Positions 1,464 to 22,498 of a DNA stretch of 23,006 bases are shown here, piece after piece; positions within the stretch are counted from its first letter, which is position 1; each line of letters begins with the position of its first letter. Source of the DNA: a virus. Both the position numbers and the translations under genes were made by a program. The notes beneath the pieces are model-generated. The model did not search any database. It saw nothing but the letters and a program-made list of their open reading frames with translations, and had not been told where the DNA came from. The stretch spans positions 1 to 23,006 of the IMG/VR virus record IMGVR_UViG_3300032160_001560. One strand, written 5' to 3'.

Positions 1464-1601
1464 GGCAGGACGTGGCGCGTGGTTCGTGGCTCGTGACTTT
1501 TGTGTTGCGAGTGGTGATCTGGGATTTTTGAATCGTGAAAAACAAATCGCCCACAGTGCTTCAAAGGCAGCCAGTTGTGTTTGCACCTGTCACTGGTTGC
1601 C

Positions 1602-4373: not shown

Positions 4374-6539
4374 TCAGACCAGAGCTACTACTTTGGCGTA
4401 CAATTTTCTCAAGTGCTCGTCGGACATGTCCAAGATCGGCTCGTACATGAATGAATTTAAGTGAATGTTTTCCGGAGTCATGAGCACTACGTTTTGAAGG
4501 GTCTTTATCACTTCCGTTTCATGGACGAACAGTTTGGCAAATTCGCTCAGAAGCACGGGCGTTTGATTCTCTTTGATGGCGGCTACAAACGCAGGGTTTG
4601 CAATCTTGGCTACCATAAATCGCTCGGCAGCAAGGCGTATAGCTACAGATAGCACAATCTTGTGTTCAAAATTAACGCCGTCACCCTCTTTCAAACAACC
4701 CGCTGCCTCCTCAAAGATAAGATTCACTACGGGCTTGTCGGCGTCCGCGGATTTTCCAGCTCCACCAAATAAATTGATGTAGATGGCGTCTAAATCCCGC
4801 CGCATGACGGTGACAGAATCTGCCTTCCAGTGGACAAGTGACGTTAGCCTGAGGTAGTCAGGATCATCCTCGCCCTTGGTGAATTCGATAAGATTGCGAA
4901 TGAAGGGGATCGAAGCGATTTGCTTGCGATTCTGAATGAAGAAGTTCTGCTTCCAGTCGTTCACGAAAACATTTTGGATGCCAGAGGCCTGTTCGAGTCG
5001 CACTCCAGTACTGCTCCTGGAGGCCATGAGACAGTGCGAATAACGCACAAATCGACTTTGGATAGTGCGAAAAAAATCGAAGTTATGGGTAAGAACAATC
5101 TGCTTGAAACTCAGTTCTTTTGCAATGTCCTGCAAGTACTGGATAATCACGTATTTGTTCTTATAATCGAATGAATCTGCAATGTCGTCGACGACGAAAA
5201 GCGTCTCCTGCCTTGCTTGTCTCCGAACTTCGACTTCAAAAATGATGTTGAGGATATAAAGAGCCTTTTTCTCTCCTTGACTTAAGGCTTTCATCAAGGT
5301 GTCCTGTTCCACCGGCACGCTCTCCACCCCATCCTGAAAAGTGAAATCAAGACTCAGCATGCTCTCATGACCCAGTGTGACAGCAATCTTATTCTTAGCT
5401 TCCAATTTGAAGGGTACAAAGAAGCGATCATTAAAGAGGTCAATTACGTTCTCCCACTGGGTGCGCTCTTTGCTTGCCTCTTCCTCTATCTCCTTTTTCC
5501 TGGCTTCCACTTGCTGATATTTGTTGAGCACGTCTTCAAAGAAATCAATTCGCGTCTTGAAATAAGATTTCCAGATTTGCTGCTTAAATAAATCAACATT
5601 TGCCAGATGGGGGAGCAATAGCTCATGTTGCACCAGGTACGCCTGAAACTCTCTAACGGTCACGTTCTTTTCTAGGAGCTTCTTGATTTCATCGAATTTC
5701 TTCTTTAGGTCCTTGTCTTTAGTTATGTTGTCCAGTTCGCCTGCAATCAATTCCTCAAGCTGCTTCTGCGTGCTAATTTCTAGTTTCTTATTCGCATTCA
5801 GGCTAATGGTGTGTTTAGCGGCAAAGAATCCATTGTCTGCCAGGGTCTTGGCGATTTGGCCTGCATTGTAATACTCAAAGATTCCCTTCTTGAAAAATGT
5901 GGATGCAGCAAGCAGTTCATTATATTTGGTAATGTAGTCCCGAATTGCGGTTTTGAAATCCTTTGTCGCAAGAAGGCTTAAGACCCTGTCGTCGAAGATC
6001 GCGTCATAGCGAACGTCAGCAAATGGAGCATCCGGCTGCTTACGCACCTCGTCCTTTACGCGGCCAAGAGCTTCGTAGAACAGGCCTTCAGTGGCCATGA
6101 ACGTCAAAGATATTTCATTTTCCAAATCCTTTTTCGAGCCAGACAGTTCCTTCAAGGACCTGACAAAGGCTTCCGTAGATTTATCAATCTCATTGTGCAA
6201 CTGCTCGTATTCTTTTCGTAAGACGTTGTTCACCAAAAGAGTCGACGTTTTCTCTGTGTGGCCAAGGAATTGATCGTAAGGAGGAAGAACAAGAATGTTC
6301 TGTTGAGGCAAATCGGCGCCATTTTCGTCAGTGATCTTTCTAGTGCAGACGCGACCAGGAAATATCCGATCCTTGGATTGCACTCCGTCAGCCACATCTT
6401 TGAATGTTTGTGCCAAAGAGGACTTCATTGACCCATTCGGGGCATAAATGGCGTAGACGTTCTGATCTGAGAAATCGAACTTCTTTTGTAGTTTCTTGAT
6501 TCCATAACAATTCGCCAGGTCAATCGACAATTGTTTCAT
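4374..6539 (-). CDS. SMC/ABC-type ATPase (AAA_13/PrrC-like class), candidate defence cargo
   Basis: 721 residues. The nucleotide-binding domain is split, as in SMC, Rad50 and PrrC-like proteins. Walker A is at 33-41 (APNGSMKSS), where Met replaces the usual glycine before Lys39. The ABC signature LSQGEKKAL is at 419-427. Walker B is at 446-454 (TLFVVDDIA) with Asp451 and Asp452, and the H-loop His is at 485 (VLTHNFDFF). Helical, partly coiled-coil sequence lies between (about 105-370). The C-terminal 230 residues match no domain I can name and may hold an effector. Such ATPases are common in anticodon nucleases (PrrC, RloC) and other antiphage systems; that role is inferred here. Base use is plainly lower in G+C than both neighbours, and the gene sits between tail genes on the same strand, so it looks like later-acquired cargo. 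No partner gene is adjacent. No strong Shine-Dalgarno is seen. Confidence 0.85.
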   Translation of the reverse strand: MKQLSIDLANCYGIKKLQKKFDFSDQNVYAIYAPNGSMKSSLAQTFKDVADGVQSKDRIFPGRVCTRKITDENGADLPQQNILVLPPYDQFLGHTEKTSTLLVNNVLRKEYEQLHNEIDKSTEAFVRSLKELSGSKKDLENEISLTFMATEGLFYEALGRVKDEVRKQPDAPFADVRYDAIFDDRVLSLLATKDFKTAIRDYITKYNELLAASTFFKKGIFEYYNAGQIAKTLADNGFFAAKHTISLNANKKLEISTQKQLEELIAGELDNITKDKDLKKKFDEIKKLLEKNVTVREFQAYLVQHELLLPHLANVDLFKQQIWKSYFKTRIDFFEDVLNKYQQVEARKKEIEEEASKERTQWENVIDLFNDRFFVPFKLEAKNKIAVTLGHESMLSLDFTFQDGVESVPVEQDTLMKALSQGEKKALYILNIIFEVEVRRQARQETLFVVDDIADSFDYKNKYVIIQYLQDIAKELSFKQIVLTHNFDFFRTIQSRFVRYSHCLMASRSSTGVRLEQASGIQNVFVNDWKQNFFIQNRKQIASIPFIRNLIEFTKGEDDPDYLRLTSLVHWKADSVTVMRRDLDAIYINLFGGAGKSADADKPVVNLIFEEAAGCLKEGDGVNFEHKIVLSVAIRLAAERFMVAKIANPAFVAAIKENQTPVLLSEFAKLFVHETEVIKTLQNVVLMTPENIHLNSFMYEPILDMSDEHLRKLYAKVVALV

Positions 6540-9333: not shown

Positions 9334-9571
9334 GTGGCACAGACTTCAGAGGCTGCGAAAAAAAGTATTTTTTGTCATTCCGAGCGAAGCGAGGAATCTC
9401 TCTTGGATTTAATTCCATGAAAAGAAAGAGAGATTCCTCGCTTCGTTCGGAATGACAAAAGGAGCGGAGCCCTTTTTCCGCAGCCTGTTCAGTCTGTGGA
9501 TTTTTGTCCTTGCACGTAGTTTCACTGGTCGGTTGATTTGCAGAAAAGCTACAGGCTGAAGCCTGTGCCAC
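9334..9571. repeat. Composite nested repeat: family B inside family A
   Basis: Outer arms GTGGCACAGACTTCAG (9334-9349) and CAGGCTGAAGCCTGTGCCAC (9552-9571) belong to family A. Inside, GGCTGCGAAAAA (9351-9362) pairs with TTTTTCCGCAGCC (about 9472-9484). Inside that lies a complete family B hairpin (9371-9459). Three stems are nested one in another, and together they fill the gap between adaptor and nozzle genes. Confidence 0.85.
9371..9459. repeat. Family B hairpin, about 34-bp arms
   Basis: Left arm 9371-9404 contains TCATTCCGAGCGAAGCGAGG and right arm 9426-9459 is its near-perfect reverse complement, with about 21 bases of loop. A degraded copy of the same family lies inside the scaffold-like gene at 19509-19609. 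Confidence 0.92.
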
Positions 9572-10307: not shown

Positions 10308-10427
10308 GGAAGTTAGAAGCTAGATGTTAGAGGTTGGAAAGAACTGGTTGGTGGAAGATTCGAGAGCGTCGCGATTGGATGCCGGAGGAGTTTTCTCCAG
10401 CCTCCAATCTCCAGCCTCTAACCTCCA
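10308..10427. repeat. Family D inverted repeat (GAGGTTGGAGGCTGGAG type)
   Basis: Left arm 10308-10340 (AAGTTAGAAGCTAGATGTTAG onward) and right arm 10395-10427 (AGCCTCCAATCTCCAGCCTC onward) are partly inverted copies. The right arm overlaps the last codons of the holin-like gene and supplies its TAG stop. A third copy occurs in frame inside the scaffold-like gene at 19107-19142. Confidence 0.75.
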
Positions 10428-10654
10428 GCAGGCAGCGGCGACTGTTTCAAATACGCCGCGACGCCGATGATGCCGGACATCATCGCGCTCACTCCCGCGA
10501 TCGCCAGCGTCGAGTGCAGTCCGGCCTGCAAGTTGAAATGCTGCGGATCGATTCCCACCGCCGCGAAACCGGTGATGACGCCGTTGGCGCCGCCCGCAAT
10601 CGCGGCGGCCACCAGGCCGCGCCACCACACTTGAAAATTTGTCCAGGCGCTCAT
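10418..10654 (-). CDS. Holin-like two-helix membrane protein
   Basis: 78 residues from the ATG at 10654, preceded by AGAGGAC as Shine-Dalgarno. Two hydrophobic segments (about 13-33 and 46-68) are small-residue-rich (Ala, Gly, Val, Ile), with a short polar connector (DPQHFNLQAGLH) and a short hydrophilic tail. Size, two helices and phage context fit a class II-type holin that would let the transglycosylase reach the cell wall. It lies away from the lysin, between tail genes, so a structural or membrane role in the virion cannot be excluded. The ten-base gap to the upstream FN3 gene suggests cotranscription and translational coupling. The last two codons and stop lie in repeat D sequence. Confidence 0.65.
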   Translation of the reverse strand: MSAWTNFQVWWRGLVAAAIAGGANGVITGFAAVGIDPQHFNLQAGLHSTLAIAGVSAMMSGIIGVAAYLKQSPLPAGG

Positions 10655-16991: not shown

Positions 16992-18263
16992 CTAGTACCC
17001 GCTCGGCCTTGCGAGCGTATCGATGAAGCTGCCGCTGCGCGGGGAGTCGTTCCACACCTGGAATCCGGTGTCGAAGTAGAAGATGAATGACGCGGAGATG
17101 CCTCCGCTGGCGCCGTAGATCGGGAACACGGTTTGCCCGCCCACCTCGAAGAAGTCGATGTCCTTCATCACCGCGCGGCCCCAGTGCGACAGATCGAGGA
17201 AATCCACGCGCGTCTGATCGGCGTTCACCGAAGACTTGATCGGAATGCCGGACATCGTTTTCTTTCCGGAGAAGAGCATGTCGAGGTCAGTCGCGCGGCC
17301 TCCCGGCCCTTCCTTGACGATTTGGGAAACCGTGATGCCCAGATTTTCCCAGGCGTGTTCCTGCTCGACGCTGGTGTAGGCGATGAGTTTTCCGAGATGG
17401 TTGATGCCCAGCGCTTTGCGGACCTTGTTGATGGCCAGGCGCGCGTGGCCGGGAACCAGTGCGGCGTTCCCCGCGTTGACGCGCGGCGTTTGCAATTGCT
17501 GCGGGTAGGTGGCCCGGTTGAGGTTGAGCCAAGTCCCGGTGGTGGCGTTGTTTTGGTGATACTTGATGCCGAAGAGCGACACCGGCGAAGAGCCGGTGAG
17601 GCCGTCATGCACGATCACGTCGTTGACGGACGTGCCGCTCGGCACGTTGTCCACCGTGATCGTTTGCGTCGAGGAAATCGGATCGGCTGCGGTCACGCTG
17701 GAAACCACGCTGGCCGCGACGTTGCGATTGGTGGTGAGTGTCGGATCGTAAATCTGGATCGTCTGCCCCACGTACACCAGCGCCGCGCCCGTGGGCACAG
17801 CCATCGTGAACGTGTTGCTGGCGATCGAGCTGATCGTGCCCAGCACGCCGTTGCCGGCGGTCTGGATCACTTTGTCGAGGAACGAGCGGAATTGCTTCAT
17901 GCCGCTGGCGATTTCCCGCTTCACGGCATTTTCGATGGCCTTCTCCCGGGAGTTGGACGCGTATTCGACGAGCTTGGTGATTTGCACGGCGAACCGGAAA
18001 AAAATCGGGGAGACTTGCGCGACGTCGTATGTGGTGCCCGAGCCGAGCCCCAGGTCGCCGCCATCGGCGCTGTAGCTGCCGGCCTTGCCGCCGGGAATCA
18101 ATTGCAACGGCAAGCGCATGTTGCGCGAGCTGACCTTTTCGATATCGCCGCGTTGCTGGATCATGCTGAGCAGAACATCGTCGCGCTCGTAGAGCAGGGG
18201 CACTTTGTCGCGCACCTTCTCCAGTTGCAACGCGATGGTTTGTGCGTTGTTTTGTTGTGCCAT
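16992..18263 (-). CDS. Major capsid protein (HK97-like fold, podovirus type)
   Basis: 423 residues from the ATG at 18263, with AAGGAG as Shine-Dalgarno. The helical N-terminus (ALQLEKVRDKVPLLYERDDV, 11-30) runs into MRLPLQLIPGGKAGSYSADGG (49-69), the usual pattern before the E-loop. A long helix (REKAIENAVKREIASGMKQFRSFLDKVIQ, about 106-134) fits the spine helix. The C-terminal part (SQIVKEGPGGRATDLDMLFSGKK, IPIKSSVNADQTRVDFLDLSHWG, and GFQVWNDSPRSGSFIDTL) fits the A domain. A strand-rich stretch at about 138-222 (TISSIASNTFTMAVPTGAAL to NDVIVHDGLTG) looks like an extra surface domain. The scaffold-like and portal-like genes precede it, the normal head-gene order. Confidence 0.85.
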   Translation of the reverse strand: MAQQNNAQTIALQLEKVRDKVPLLYERDDVLLSMIQQRGDIEKVSSRNMRLPLQLIPGGKAGSYSADGGDLGLGSGTTYDVAQVSPIFFRFAVQITKLVEYASNSREKAIENAVKREIASGMKQFRSFLDKVIQTAGNGVLGTISSIASNTFTMAVPTGAALVYVGQTIQIYDPTLTTNRNVAASVVSSVTAADPISSTQTITVDNVPSGTSVNDVIVHDGLTGSSPVSLFGIKYHQNNATTGTWLNLNRATYPQQLQTPRVNAGNAALVPGHARLAINKVRKALGINHLGKLIAYTSVEQEHAWENLGITVSQIVKEGPGGRATDLDMLFSGKKTMSGIPIKSSVNADQTRVDFLDLSHWGRAVMKDIDFFEVGGQTVFPIYGASGGISASFIFYFDTGFQVWNDSPRSGSFIDTLARPSGY

Positions 18264-18420: not shown

Positions 18421-18508
18421 GTGGCGCAGGCTTCCAGCCTGTGGGTTTTTGTTATGCCCAAGCGCGAGTTCCTAGCAACCAACCCTCACAGGCTGAAGCC
18501 TGTTCCAC
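18421..18508. repeat. Family A inverted repeat that contains the scaffold stop codon
   Basis: Left arm GTGGCGCAGGCTTCCAGCC (from 18421); right arm CTCACAGGCTGAAGCCTGTT (about 18485-18504) followed by CCACTA. The core retains GTTATGCCCAAG and CTAGCAACCAA. The TAG stop of the scaffold-like gene (18508-18510) overlaps the repeat edge. Confidence 0.85.
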
Positions 18509-19785
18509 TAAATTCCCAATATCTCCTCATCGCTCATGGACGCGTAGTTCACTTCGCGCGGCGACATTTGTCTCAGTGGCATGGAATCGAGCGATCCGCC
18601 GGGCGCGGCGATATCGACGCGCGCCGCCGCGGCCGCCTGCCGCGCGGCCTTCGATCGCGCCGTGTTCAACACCGTGCTGGTCCATTCGCCGATCACGCGG
18701 CGCGCCACGCTGGGCACCAGCTGCTTCGCGCGCCCCGCGAGCAGCGACGCAACGCGCTGCTGCTCCGCGCCGCCAAATCGCCGGTCGCGCAACACCCCGG
18801 CAACTTGCTCGGAAAGCGCGCGGTCCGCCGCGAGCGCGCGATGCACTTCGTTAAAAATATCCTCGCCGATCCGCCGCGCCGCTCCCTCCGCCACGCCCTC
18901 CGGCATCACGCGCGCCAGCGTCTCGCCGATCGACCCGCGCACGTCCCGCGCCACCGCGTCGTTCGTGGCGCGCTCGAAGTTGGCGTACGCGCTAGGGTCG
19001 AAGTGCGGCGGCTCAAGAGCCGTGGCCCGTGGTTCGTGGCCCGTGCCCCGTGTCACCTGATCGGCGTCTTGTCCCGCAGACAATTCTCGCGCAGCCGACG
19101 CATCGGGATTTCCAATCTCCAACCTCGAGCCTCCAACCTCCGCTTTCTGCCCCATCCCCGCCAGCACCTTCGCCGCCTCGGCAAACATCGACCGAAACGC
19201 CGCCGGATTCGCCCGCGCGAGTTCCGCCACAACTTCCGACTGCGCCCGCGCATCCCCCGAAAATATCGCCGCGTCAATCCTGTCCACGGATTGCGTCGCC
19301 TCGCGCAACGTCAAAACATCGCGCACGCCGCCAGGCAACAATTCCTTGATCGCCCGCGCCTCCTCCGGAGAAGCAAACGCAGCGCGAAATTCCTGATGCT
19401 CGCGCCACAACTGCTGCGCCTCGCCCCCATGTTTCGGATCCGCCGCCAGCGTCGCCATCCACGAAGGCATCTGCGCGCTCGCCTCATGGCCCGCTGCAGT
19501 ATCCTGGTTGTCATTCTGAGGGCCGTCTTTGCCCGAAGAATCTCTCTGTGAACTTTCGTTGCTCCCATCCTCGATCGAAGAGAGATTCCTCGCTTCGCTC
19601 GGAATGACAGAATTAGGTCTTGCAACGCTTGAGCCGATCGGCTCCATGTCCAGAATTTCCTCGTCGGTTAGGTACGCCGCACCAGCGGCGCCAGTGTTCG
19701 CCGCGCCTGCTGGAGAAACAGGCGCGCCACTCTGCGACGCCTGCGTCCCTGCCCAATCCAGATCCACTTGCACTCCACTGCTCAT
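18508..19785 (-). CDS. Capsid scaffold-like protein with in-frame repeat insertions
   Basis: 425 residues; the start at 19785 is fixed by a GAGGAG Shine-Dalgarno seven bases upstream. It is Ala-, Glu- and Arg-rich and largely helical, with a disordered N-terminus, and sits between portal-like and capsid genes, the usual place of scaffold proteins. Helical parts include GEAQQLWREHQEFRAAF (about 120-137) and VARDVRGSIGETLARVMPEG. An acidic motif DEEIL occurs near the N-terminus (TDEEILDMEPIG, 40-51) and again at the very end (SMSDEEILGI). Three stretches translate intergenic repeat families: residues about 59-93 (family B), 215-227 (family D) and 244-257 (family E). The frame nevertheless stays open. 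The open frame continues upstream to 20094 inside the portal gene, which is not credible coding sequence. Confidence 0.75.
   Translation of the reverse strand: MSSGVQVDLDWAGTQASQSGAPVSPAGAANTGAAGAAYLTDEEILDMEPIGSSVARPNSVIPSEARNLSSIEDGSNESSQRDSSGKDGPQNDNQDTAAGHEASAQMPSWMATLAADPKHGGEAQQLWREHQEFRAAFASPEEARAIKELLPGGVRDVLTLREATQSVDRIDAAIFSGDARAQSEVVAELARANPAAFRSMFAEAAKVLAGMGQKAEVGGSRLEIGNPDASAARELSAGQDADQVTRGTGHEPRATALEPPHFDPSAYANFERATNDAVARDVRGSIGETLARVMPEGVAEGAARRIGEDIFNEVHRALAADRALSEQVAGVLRDRRFGGAEQQRVASLLAGRAKQLVPSVARRVIGEWTSTVLNTARSKAARQAAAAARVDIAAPGGSLDSMPLRQMSPREVNYASMSDEEILGI
19016..19056. repeat. Family E repeat inside the scaffold-like gene
   Basis: Chain of CGTGGCCCGTGGTTCGTGGC units. 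A related chain (ACGTGGCGCGTGGTTCGTGG) lies at about 1467-1495, upstream of the transglycosylase. Here it is translated as RGTGHEPRATAL in the scaffold-like protein. Confidence 0.7.
19107..19142. repeat. Family D repeat inside the scaffold-like gene
   Basis: TTTCCAATCTCCAACCTCGA and following CCTCCAACCTCC match the right arm of the element at 10308-10427. Translated as EVGGSRLEIGNPD. Confidence 0.75.
19509..19609. repeat. Degenerate family B hairpin inside the scaffold-like gene
   Basis: Right arm AGAGAGATTCCTCGCTTCGC (from 19579) is nearly identical to the family B copy at 9426-9459. The left arm (TGTCATTCTGAGGGCCGTCT onward, 19509-19547) has diverged more. Length is compatible with the open frame; it encodes about residues 59-93. 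Confidence 0.88.
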
Positions 19786-19858: not shown

Positions 19859-22498
19859 TCATTTGTTGCTCTTCGGGGGATTTGTTGAATTGGGGACGAT
19901 TGCCGCGCCTTGCGCGGCATACGCCAATCCGATCGCCCGCAAGTGCGCTTCGGCGTGAGCGCGCACGTTCGCAAAGCCCGCGGGATTTTCGACGCGCGCG
20001 ATTTGCCCGGCGTCCGAATTCGCCCACCGCCGGCACTCTTCGAGCTCGACCGCGTGATTGTCGAAGAGCAAATCGACCGGGACGCTGGGTTCAAGTAGCA
20101 CAGACTTCAGTCTGTGGGTTTCCATTAGTTGCTCCCGGGCTGCTGCCGATGGATTCGACTTGCTCCCCGAAGATCCTGACGATTCGCTTTCATCATTCGG
20201 AACCCGACAGGCTGAAGCCTGTCCTACTAAAAGCAAATCAATCTCGCGCAACTGCTTGTTGCGCGAATCCTCTCCCGGCACGACGAGGTCCGACAAACCG
20301 AGCACGCCTTTCACGAATCCGATATTCGCAGGATCGGCGAGCGCCTGCTGGATCATCGGATCGGACGACGCCATCAATTGCTGCACGACGGCTCGCTGCT
20401 GCGATTTCAAGCGCGGAAATGTTTCGTCGCTTTCGGGATGCGCTTGAATGTTGCCCTTCAAGTCGGCAAGGCGAATCCAGCGCGACTCGAATTCCCCGCC
20501 CGGCCCGAGAATCGGAATCTCCGCGTCCTCAGGACGATTTTTCCGGAAGCAGTCCACCGACAAGAGCATCACATCGGCATAAAAAGTTTTCAGACGCCGC
20601 CACACGAGTCCCAGTCGCCCGAGCGCCTGATCGCGCGCCATGGCGTAGCCCGAAGCGGTTTTTACTGATTCCATTTCTCCGCCGAACACAGCGGGAAAAA
20701 GTCCGGTAAGAAATTGCGAGACCGGACCCATCAATTCCTGCTGGTGCCGCACTAGATCGGGCGGCACTTGCGCCGGCGCGGGCTGAAAAAATCCCGCGGC
20801 CAGCGGCTGCCCCGGACGCGCGCGCGCCGGATAGTGCGCCGCGGGCTCGGCCGTTTGATTCGCGAGCGCGTCAAAATCCAAAACCTGCGGATCGGCGTAA
20901 ATCGGCGGGATGCCGTACTCGTACGTTTCCGCTTGAATGTTGGACAGCGTGTTGTAGCGTTCCTGAATCTGCACCAGCGAATCGCCCACCGACGGCCGGT
21001 TCTGCCCGTCGCCCGGAAGCGCGTGCATCACGCGCCAGCGATCGTCCATCGATTCGTTGCGCGATTCGCAATACGTGTCGCCGGCATAGGCGACGTAGCA
21101 GCCGTCGGGAAACAGCGCCAGCAGCGCGTCGCGCACGCTCTTGTCCTCGAGCGCGTAGAACGACCACGGCCGAATCCACGTCCGCGAAAACGTAATCAAA
21201 TTAAATAGCGCGTCGCCAGGATGCGTCGTCGGCAGTCCCTGCGCGATCGCCACGCGCGTCGCCCGCGCGTACACGTCGTCGGACTGGATCGGCCCGCCCA
21301 TCTGAATTTTGTCCGCCGCATGCGGATAGCTGGCCTTCAATTTCGCGCGGTGCACCTCCATCGACCACTGGAGATACGGATACTCGTGCATCTCGTTCGC
21401 CCACACCGGCGTATTCAACTCGAGCCCGCCGACAACGGAAATCACTTCCTGCCCGTTCGCGACGCGCCGCACACCGGTAATCAGCGGAACCGCAACGCGA
21501 GGCGCCGGAGTGAAATGCTCAGGACCAAGCGAAGCTCCGCAGTTGCGGCAGAGTACTGCAGGTAGCAGGTTGTTAGTGGCAGGTGGAAGGGTGTCGGAAT
21601 GTCCGCCGGAAGGCGTTGGGTTATCGGTGTTAGGGTTCGAGTTTTCCCCTGTTCCCTGCTCTCTGCTACCTACTACCTGCTCGGCGCCGCACTCGGGACA
21701 CACATACGCGTCATCTCCTAGCGGCACGTAGTGTTCCTCAATCACCGGCTCATCGTGCGAACCGAACCGCTGCGCGTCGGCCACGTACCGCACGTAGCCG
21801 CCGATTTTTCCGTCGGTCCACAAATAAAACGCCACGCCGGTCAGCAAATGCTGCACGCGATTATTCTGCTCGACCAGGTCGCACACCTCGGAAGCCGCGC
21901 GCGCCGCCGAGATGTCTCCGATCGCCTGCGCCGACTGGGGATAAAATCGAGTCGCGGGAACGTCTTGGCTGAGAATGGAAATGAACGAAAGCCCGAACGC
22001 CTGATACAGATTCGTGACGAACTGGTAGCGCGGCATTTCCGCCGCCGCGCTGTCGTCGTAAATTTTCGATTCGTACGGCAGGTGCCAGGTCATGTCCTGC
22101 GGATTCCACCACGCGTATTGCAAGCCTTGCCAAAACAGGCGCGCCTGCCGGATGCGCCGGATTTCGTGCCGACGCGCGACGATTCCCTCCTCGCGATACT
22201 GCACGACGAGCTCGCGCACCGCATTCACCAGGTCCGGCCGCAGCTCCTCGAGCCTCTCGTTGTTCGGCCCCAGCGCAAGCTTCGCCAGCGCTTCCTGCGC
22301 GTTAGCCGCGGGCTGCTTGCCGTCAATCCCAAGCGGCGCGCGCGCAGGTTTTGCGCCCTGCGCGGACAGTGCGCCGCTCGTCGTGAGTCCGCCTCCGGCG
22401 GAAGAACCATCAAGCGGCGCAACGCTGCCGTCGTTCGGCGCCTCATTTTCGCCGTTCAAGATCGCGAGGTCGTCCAAATTGTTCGTCTGATTGGTCAT
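19859..22498 (-). CDS. Portal-like protein with two in-frame repeat insertions
   Basis: 879 residues from the ATG at 22498. The body has the pattern of podovirus portals: a helical entry with RRHEIRRIRQARLFWQGLQ and YAWWNPQDMTWHLPYES (about 109-144), MPRYQFVTNLYQAFGLSFIS (155-174), the stem/crown part GFFQPAPAQVPPDLVRHQQE, and a helical C-terminal section (LKSQQRAVVQQLMASSDPMIQQALADP). A zinc ribbon (Cys267, Cys270, Cys317, Cys320) is split by about 42 residues translated from a repeat (about 273-314). A second repeat is translated at about 757-802. Without these the length approaches that of P22-class portals (about 725). The portal is the dodecameric DNA gate of the capsid vertex. The ATG at 22498 has no Shine-Dalgarno; an in-frame ATG at 22537, inside the repeat, has GGGAG five bases upstream and is a possible alternative start. 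Confidence 0.78.
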   Translation of the reverse strand: MTNQTNNLDDLAILNGENEAPNDGSVAPLDGSSAGGGLTTSGALSAQGAKPARAPLGIDGKQPAANAQEALAKLALGPNNERLEELRPDLVNAVRELVVQYREEGIVARRHEIRRIRQARLFWQGLQYAWWNPQDMTWHLPYESKIYDDSAAAEMPRYQFVTNLYQAFGLSFISILSQDVPATRFYPQSAQAIGDISAARAASEVCDLVEQNNRVQHLLTGVAFYLWTDGKIGGYVRYVADAQRFGSHDEPVIEEHYVPLGDDAYVCPECGAEQVVGSREQGTGENSNPNTDNPTPSGGHSDTLPPATNNLLPAVLCRNCGASLGPEHFTPAPRVAVPLITGVRRVANGQEVISVVGGLELNTPVWANEMHEYPYLQWSMEVHRAKLKASYPHAADKIQMGGPIQSDDVYARATRVAIAQGLPTTHPGDALFNLITFSRTWIRPWSFYALEDKSVRDALLALFPDGCYVAYAGDTYCESRNESMDDRWRVMHALPGDGQNRPSVGDSLVQIQERYNTLSNIQAETYEYGIPPIYADPQVLDFDALANQTAEPAAHYPARARPGQPLAAGFFQPAPAQVPPDLVRHQQELMGPVSQFLTGLFPAVFGGEMESVKTASGYAMARDQALGRLGLVWRRLKTFYADVMLLSVDCFRKNRPEDAEIPILGPGGEFESRWIRLADLKGNIQAHPESDETFPRLKSQQRAVVQQLMASSDPMIQQALADPANIGFVKGVLGLSDLVVPGEDSRNKQLREIDLLLVGQASACRVPNDESESSGSSGSKSNPSAAAREQLMETHRLKSVLLEPSVPVDLLFDNHAVELEECRRWANSDAGQIARVENPAGFANVRAHAEAHLRAIGLAYAAQGAAIVPNSTNPPKSNK
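20094..20228. repeat. Family A inverted repeat inside the portal-like gene
   Basis: Left arm AGTAGCACAGACTTCAGTCT (20094-20118) and right arm CCGACAGGCTGAAGCCTGTC (20203-20228). In the portal frame it reads VGQASACRVP at one end and METHRLKSVLLE at the other. The element at 22507-22645 carries the same arm in the same frame. Confidence 0.92.
21556..21680. repeat. Family C repeat inside the portal zinc ribbon
   Basis: One side is TGCAGGTAGCAGGTTGTTAG, the other CTGCTCTCTGCTACCTACTA then CCTGCT, an inverted chain of GGTAGCAGG-type units with unique sequence between. It separates the two CxxC knuckles of the portal zinc ribbon without a frameshift. Confidence 0.8.

Follow-up and report, generated by a model that had tools for sequence, protein, structure and literature searches.

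Most known examples of repeats read in frame within protein-coding genes come from Rickettsia and a few other bacteria. The Rickettsia palindromic elements (RPE), which also occur in Wolbachia, are small inverted repeats found both between genes and, in frame, within genes, where they are translated and tolerated (PMC2229807, PMC10969869). Intragenic MITEs, among them ERIC/RU-1, the 107-bp form of Correia and Coxiella QMITE1, are non-autonomous and carry open frames, and several of them are fused to genes in frame (PMC2229807, PMC10969869). Heptamer repeats, such as TAACTGA in Beggiatoaceae and those of Xanthomonas and Nostoc, are abundant between genes (PMC4679880, PMC4692102). Our literature search retrieved no report of in-frame host repeats in phage genes and no relevant repeats of Acidobacteria; since it covered the literature in part, the absence of phage reports is weak evidence of novelty.

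Repeats in the scaffold-like and portal-like genes

The whole stretch of DNA analyzed here (the window) spans 23,006 nucleotides of a soil phage and is identical to virus record IMGVR_UViG_3300032160_001560, which consists of this contig alone. The scaffold-like gene occurs with 100% identity in a second IMG/VR record, UViG 3300027905_000668, which argues against an assembly artefact. The following features are discussed.

18508..19785, minus strand: scaffold-like gene, 425 aa, ATG at 19785; recognized from homologues, a mostly helical AlphaFold2 model, and portal and major capsid neighbours
19471..19641, minus strand: linker S1, predicted disordered (pLDDT<50, residues 46-102), holding family B
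19509..19609, minus strand: family B inverted-repeat element, read as VIPSEARNLSSIEDGSNESSQRDSSGKDGPQND (residues 59-93)
19003..19155, minus strand: linker S2, largely predicted disordered (pLDDT<50, residues 216-244 and 249-251), holding families D and E
19107..19142, minus strand: family D, array with a 7-nt period (GGAGGTT type; residues 215-227)
19016..19056, minus strand: family E, array with a 7-nt period (CACGGGC type; residues 244-257)
9371..9459, no strand: intergenic family B element, near-perfect hairpin (folding z -13.9)
10394..10429, no strand: intergenic array with a 7/14-nt period, related to D
1471..1495, no strand: array with a 7-nt period near the start of an SLT-domain gene, resembling E
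19859..22498, minus strand: portal-like gene with two CxxC pairs and repeats in loops P1 and P2
21551..21685, minus strand: portal loop P1, between the two CxxC pairs
21643..21683, minus strand: array with a 7-nt period in P1
20090..20236, minus strand: portal loop P2, occupied by family A (VGQASAC...METHRLKSVLLE)
16992..18263, minus strand: major capsid gene, weak PHROGs match; used as a control

The minus-strand gene order, portal-scaffold-capsid, places the scaffold-like gene where phages carry a scaffold, and its product has the helical, partly disordered character of such proteins: the AlphaFold2 model, based on 40 homologues, contains long helices, with pLDDT<50 at residues 1-40, 46-102, 216-244, 249-251 and 396-409. 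The protein had no match in PHROGs or Pfam, and no significant Foldseek, PDB or fold-search match. Because it resembled known scaffolds in neither sequence nor fold, we label it scaffold-like and do not file it as a phage scaffolding protein. The portal was assigned from its position and size, not from a database match, and its AlphaFold2 model was too poor (mean pLDDT 48.8) to locate P1 and P2, which were therefore placed by sequence only. Elsewhere in the window, positions 4374-6539 encode a protein of 721 aa whose SMC/RecF-type match is weak and falls short of the Pfam cut-off; its gene adjoins a tail-type structural gene in the same orientation.

The initial annotation had reported three repeat families in frame within the 425-codon scaffold-like gene, with relatives between genes of the same window. 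Both the in-frame placement of B, D and E and the intergenic relatives were confirmed; parts of B matched the intergenic element at 9370-9408 (39 nt, 95%, E 3.8e-13) and 9426-9460 (94%). Lag-7 matches in D and E numbered 19/24 and 21/26, levels reached in none of 2,000 codon shuffles of the gene, and among lags 4 to 12 no other lag exceeded 16/24. The repeats are thus real, but D and E, both heptamer arrays, are of one kind, so that the gene holds two repeat classes rather than three. In the model, B and D/E lie within or at the edge of the two predicted linkers S1 and S2, which supports reading the segments as inserts that derive from repeats and lie in the disordered linkers of a helical protein. 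The scaffold-like gene is not their only site: the portal carries repeats too, as does the terminase in relatives. The P1 array and the family A arms in the portal gene (20198-20227 and 20087-20125) had been missing from the initial annotation.

Distribution among relatives and the likely host source

Homologue searches located the scaffold at 5 genome and 5 viral loci and the portal at 80 viral loci; about 57 scaffold ORFs and 84 portal ORFs remained after removal of duplicates. In the tree, the window belongs to a clade of 12 members (clade 1), in which S1 and S2 are highly variable (34-90 aa and 51-156 aa, respectively) and the cores are conserved. The scaffold core is preserved on both sides of the inserts, and the frame is kept in relatives. 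The linkers of this clade carry B, heptamer arrays, PTLRENREGWGT (family P), RRQDAGAT (family R), NQ runs, FRGGE...DPGY (family F) and QTLLSV...QTGVSV (family Q), and portal loops P1 and P2 are likewise filled with repeats across the clade. Distant relatives have linkers as well, mostly 40-56 aa at S1 and mostly 25-49 aa at S2, without recognized repeats. Separately, the scaffold ORFs of relatives L038 and L080 lose frame inside S1 compared with their near relative L037, and that of L019 is present as two ORFs (6755, 7442) split near S2.

Host-matching DNA was mapped in the 12 close relatives as positions with a depth of at least 3 matches to 796 kb of host sequence. Coverage was 34% in S1, 20% in S2, 24% in P1 and 38% in P2. 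By contrast, none of the 11.1 kb of scaffold core and none of the 11.5 kb of capsid gene in these 12 relatives was covered at this depth; the window's own major capsid gene had no host-repeat match. A few host-matching bases assigned to the portal core were N-terminal or P2 stretches missed by our patterns. Within the window, host-matching sequence covered 15% of intergenic bases versus 0.7% of genic bases.

Similar filling was observed in the large terminase of a second clade (clade 2), in which family M lies in a loop after the nuclease motif IDWGF:

Relative L042, 2257-3981: large terminase with family M
Relative L047, 3001-4785: large terminase with family M
Relative L041, 1120-2760: large terminase with family M
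Relative L053, 2988-4661: large terminase with family M

Clade 1 and L028 have a nuclease hairpin of 16 aa at this position; in clade 2 it is filled with repeats and reaches 40-89 aa. This is the clearest comparison of a short and a filled site. Homologues free of the elements therefore exist, both as the repeat-free linkers of distant relatives and as the short terminase hairpin of clade 1.

Family B gave 32-79 matches in each of four Acidobacteriota (Terriglobia) MAGs that hold relatives, and matched just 6 of the 119 genomes in an even phylum draw, for which few candidates were scored per genome. The four MAGs also hold multiple copies of families P and R and of an S2 heptamer array, and the S2 stretch of L055 has many matches there over its P, heptamer and R parts. 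In the 796 kb of host sequence, family B is represented by 11 full elements, which share their arms and differ in a variable centre of 24-30 nt. B is thus a small multi-copy palindrome, as RPE are; D and E, as 7-nt arrays, are not. To the extent that the binning of the MAGs is correct, these matches make an Acidobacteriota (Terriglobia) host the likely source of the repeats. For clade 2, a host search in a draw of 199 genomes returned one weak, unconfirmed candidate (G199).

Age, reading frame and constraint of the inserts

In six relatives, B starts exactly 8 residues past the same E/D-x-V/I-G motif, and heptamer arrays are found in S2 of most relatives. This constant spacing makes it unlikely that B entered the window recently and on its own. 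The copies of B at S1 probably go back to a single old insertion inherited by the relatives, or else to repeated replacement at one spot, with which the constant position also fits. If the insertion is old, the case for repeated entry rests on other sites. In P2, family A occupies the loop in the window and in L016, B in L017 and L055, R in L006 and L007, P in L018, and heptamer arrays in L004, L005, L008 and L015, a distribution at odds with the tree, some nodes of which are weakly supported. Similarly, S2 differs between L005 and L008 despite about 91% identity in their shared DNA. Copies at separate sites may not all be independent events. The "three independent hits" of the initial annotation were accordingly wrong, because B and the arrays of S2 have long been present in this clade, although outgroup clades lack the segments at these positions.

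Identity by codon position was 0.77/0.68/0.67 in B, compared with 0.87/0.90/0.66 in the neighbouring core, indicating that B drifts with little amino-acid constraint and that the core is held. Synonymous identity conditional on the same amino acid had seemed raised in B, but in unconstrained sequence that measure is subject to bias, and we relied on identity by codon position. In S1 of L015, the B insert holds a 7-residue insert of its own (PDRAGVN) in the first arm, with the frame kept.

We then compared the frames in which repeats are read. Family P, with six open frames, uses one of them in 9/9 cases at four sites (S1, S2, P1 and P2), and family R, also with six, uses one in 8/8 cases at three sites (S2, P2 and the portal N-terminus). 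Family M, with five open frames, keeps to a single frame in 31 of 32 cases. For family L, which has two open frames, 25 of 26 cases agree, and the one that departs comes from an alignment that probably contains an indel. By hand estimate, agreement across sites would arise by chance at about (1/6)^3 for P, (1/6)^2 for R and (1/5)^3 for M, assuming independence, one event per family-site pair and equally likely open frames. For P, R and F, the frame that is kept is one of the more polar of those available, and the frame of M looks polar by inspection. The rule is not universal: B is read in the +1 frame, and in other frames in some clade-2 genes, and A in several. Frame choice is nevertheless non-random, so the filter on inserts seems to be more than the absence of stops and frameshifts. 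The initial annotation had posed weak constraint and selection for linkers as alternatives. Weak amino-acid constraint holds for B, judging from its codon positions, but the repeat-free linkers of distant relatives and the non-random frame choice show that the two are not either/or.

The use of P, R, M and L in a single frame, mostly as polar peptides, and the presence of linkers in all relatives, even those without recognized repeats, would be expected if repeats were positively selected as linkers, that is, if the length and polarity of S1, S2, P1 and P2 mattered for assembly and repeats were a ready source. However, linker lengths vary widely within clade 1, and the B insert has no clear codon-position constraint, which makes this explanation unlikely.

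A role at the DNA or RNA level, as mRNA hairpins or as joints at which recombination reshuffles head genes among phages, would make translation incidental. The arms of B within genes do retain folding (z -3.2 to -5.9 for four copies, and -2.3 for L018), and alignment blocks between relatives tend to end at linkers. The intergenic B hairpin is far stronger, though (z -13.9), D does not fold (z 0.45), half-elements exist (one B arm in S1 of L055, and one P arm), and an RNA function does not predict a fixed reading frame; we consider such a role very improbable. Its recombination-joint form was set aside, since divergence is broadly concordant between segments (r ~0.55-0.92 in most pairs, with weaker agreement in the short C-terminal piece of the portal) and gives no clear sign of module swapping.

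In P1 of L056, about 11 tandem 5-residue GLVAQ units run into a family A element between the CxxC pairs. The portal ORF of L055 is in two pieces (1-1122 and 969-2837), with the break inside P1 among repeats, and that ORF is also split in L078/L079, L080, L085 and L093. These splits could be real frameshifts or assembly errors in repeats.

Proposed origin and comparison with known systems

We think it quite likely that the segments are copies of interspersed repeats of the host, which entered the phage and have survived there as linkers that are translated. The source would be intergenic host repeats of two kinds, inverted-repeat elements of about 80-100 bp and 7-nt arrays. Their copying into the phage genome would have relied on a mobilising enzyme supplied in trans or on recombination while the host was infected. 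PF01797 transposase genes are present in the four MAGs, as they commonly are elsewhere; REP-like mobilisation is possible given these genes, although they prove nothing. Selection would then have removed copies that fell in cores, broke the frame or added stops, leaving the observed pattern, in which head and packaging proteins carry the survivors in linkers and surface loops. It probably also purges copies that add sticky peptides, which may be why the retained open frame usually encodes a polar, stop-free peptide. Once in place, an insert drifts under little amino-acid constraint and may later be replaced or extended by other repeats, which would give related phages the different occupants observed at one site. 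In the window, B and the S2 arrays are old occupants of two linkers. The linkers probably came first and were then colonised by repeats, as distant relatives have linkers without recognized repeats. From purifying selection on the flanking cores, we infer that the inserted peptides are expressed.

The broader proposal, to which we give roughly even chances, is that loops and linkers of scaffold, portal and terminase are standing landing sites for host repeats across this phage lineage, with selection picking one frame per family and the same few peptides recurring at unrelated sites in unrelated packaging proteins. The roughly 57 scaffold and 84 portal ORFs, with their short and filled sites, many repeat families and likely host source, amount to a natural insertion scan of essential virus proteins, indicating where a peptide is tolerated, in which frame, and how occupants change between relatives. 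Shared repeats also offer a way to link uncultivated phages to a host lineage. Database peptides such as VIPSEARNLSS, PTLRENREGWGT, RRQDAGAT and SLDSGLQNAQTSARDD may be repeat-derived rather than domains.

The 7-nt units are shared with the heptamers of Beggiatoaceae, Xanthomonas and Nostoc, but the units here are different and the arrays also lie in coding linkers. Unlike the intragenic MITEs, the insertions described here occur only in loops and linkers, and in a small number of phage proteins. Of known cases, the RPE of Rickettsia come nearest, the likeness claimed being in the way of working only. RPE of about 105-150 bp reside in bacterial genes, whereas the repeats here reside in phage head and packaging genes, where the same loops harbour many unrelated families, 7-nt arrays among them, and the occupants vary from one relative to another. 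The best reading, by analogy, is of a pattern like that of Rickettsia palindromic elements, but in phage packaging genes.
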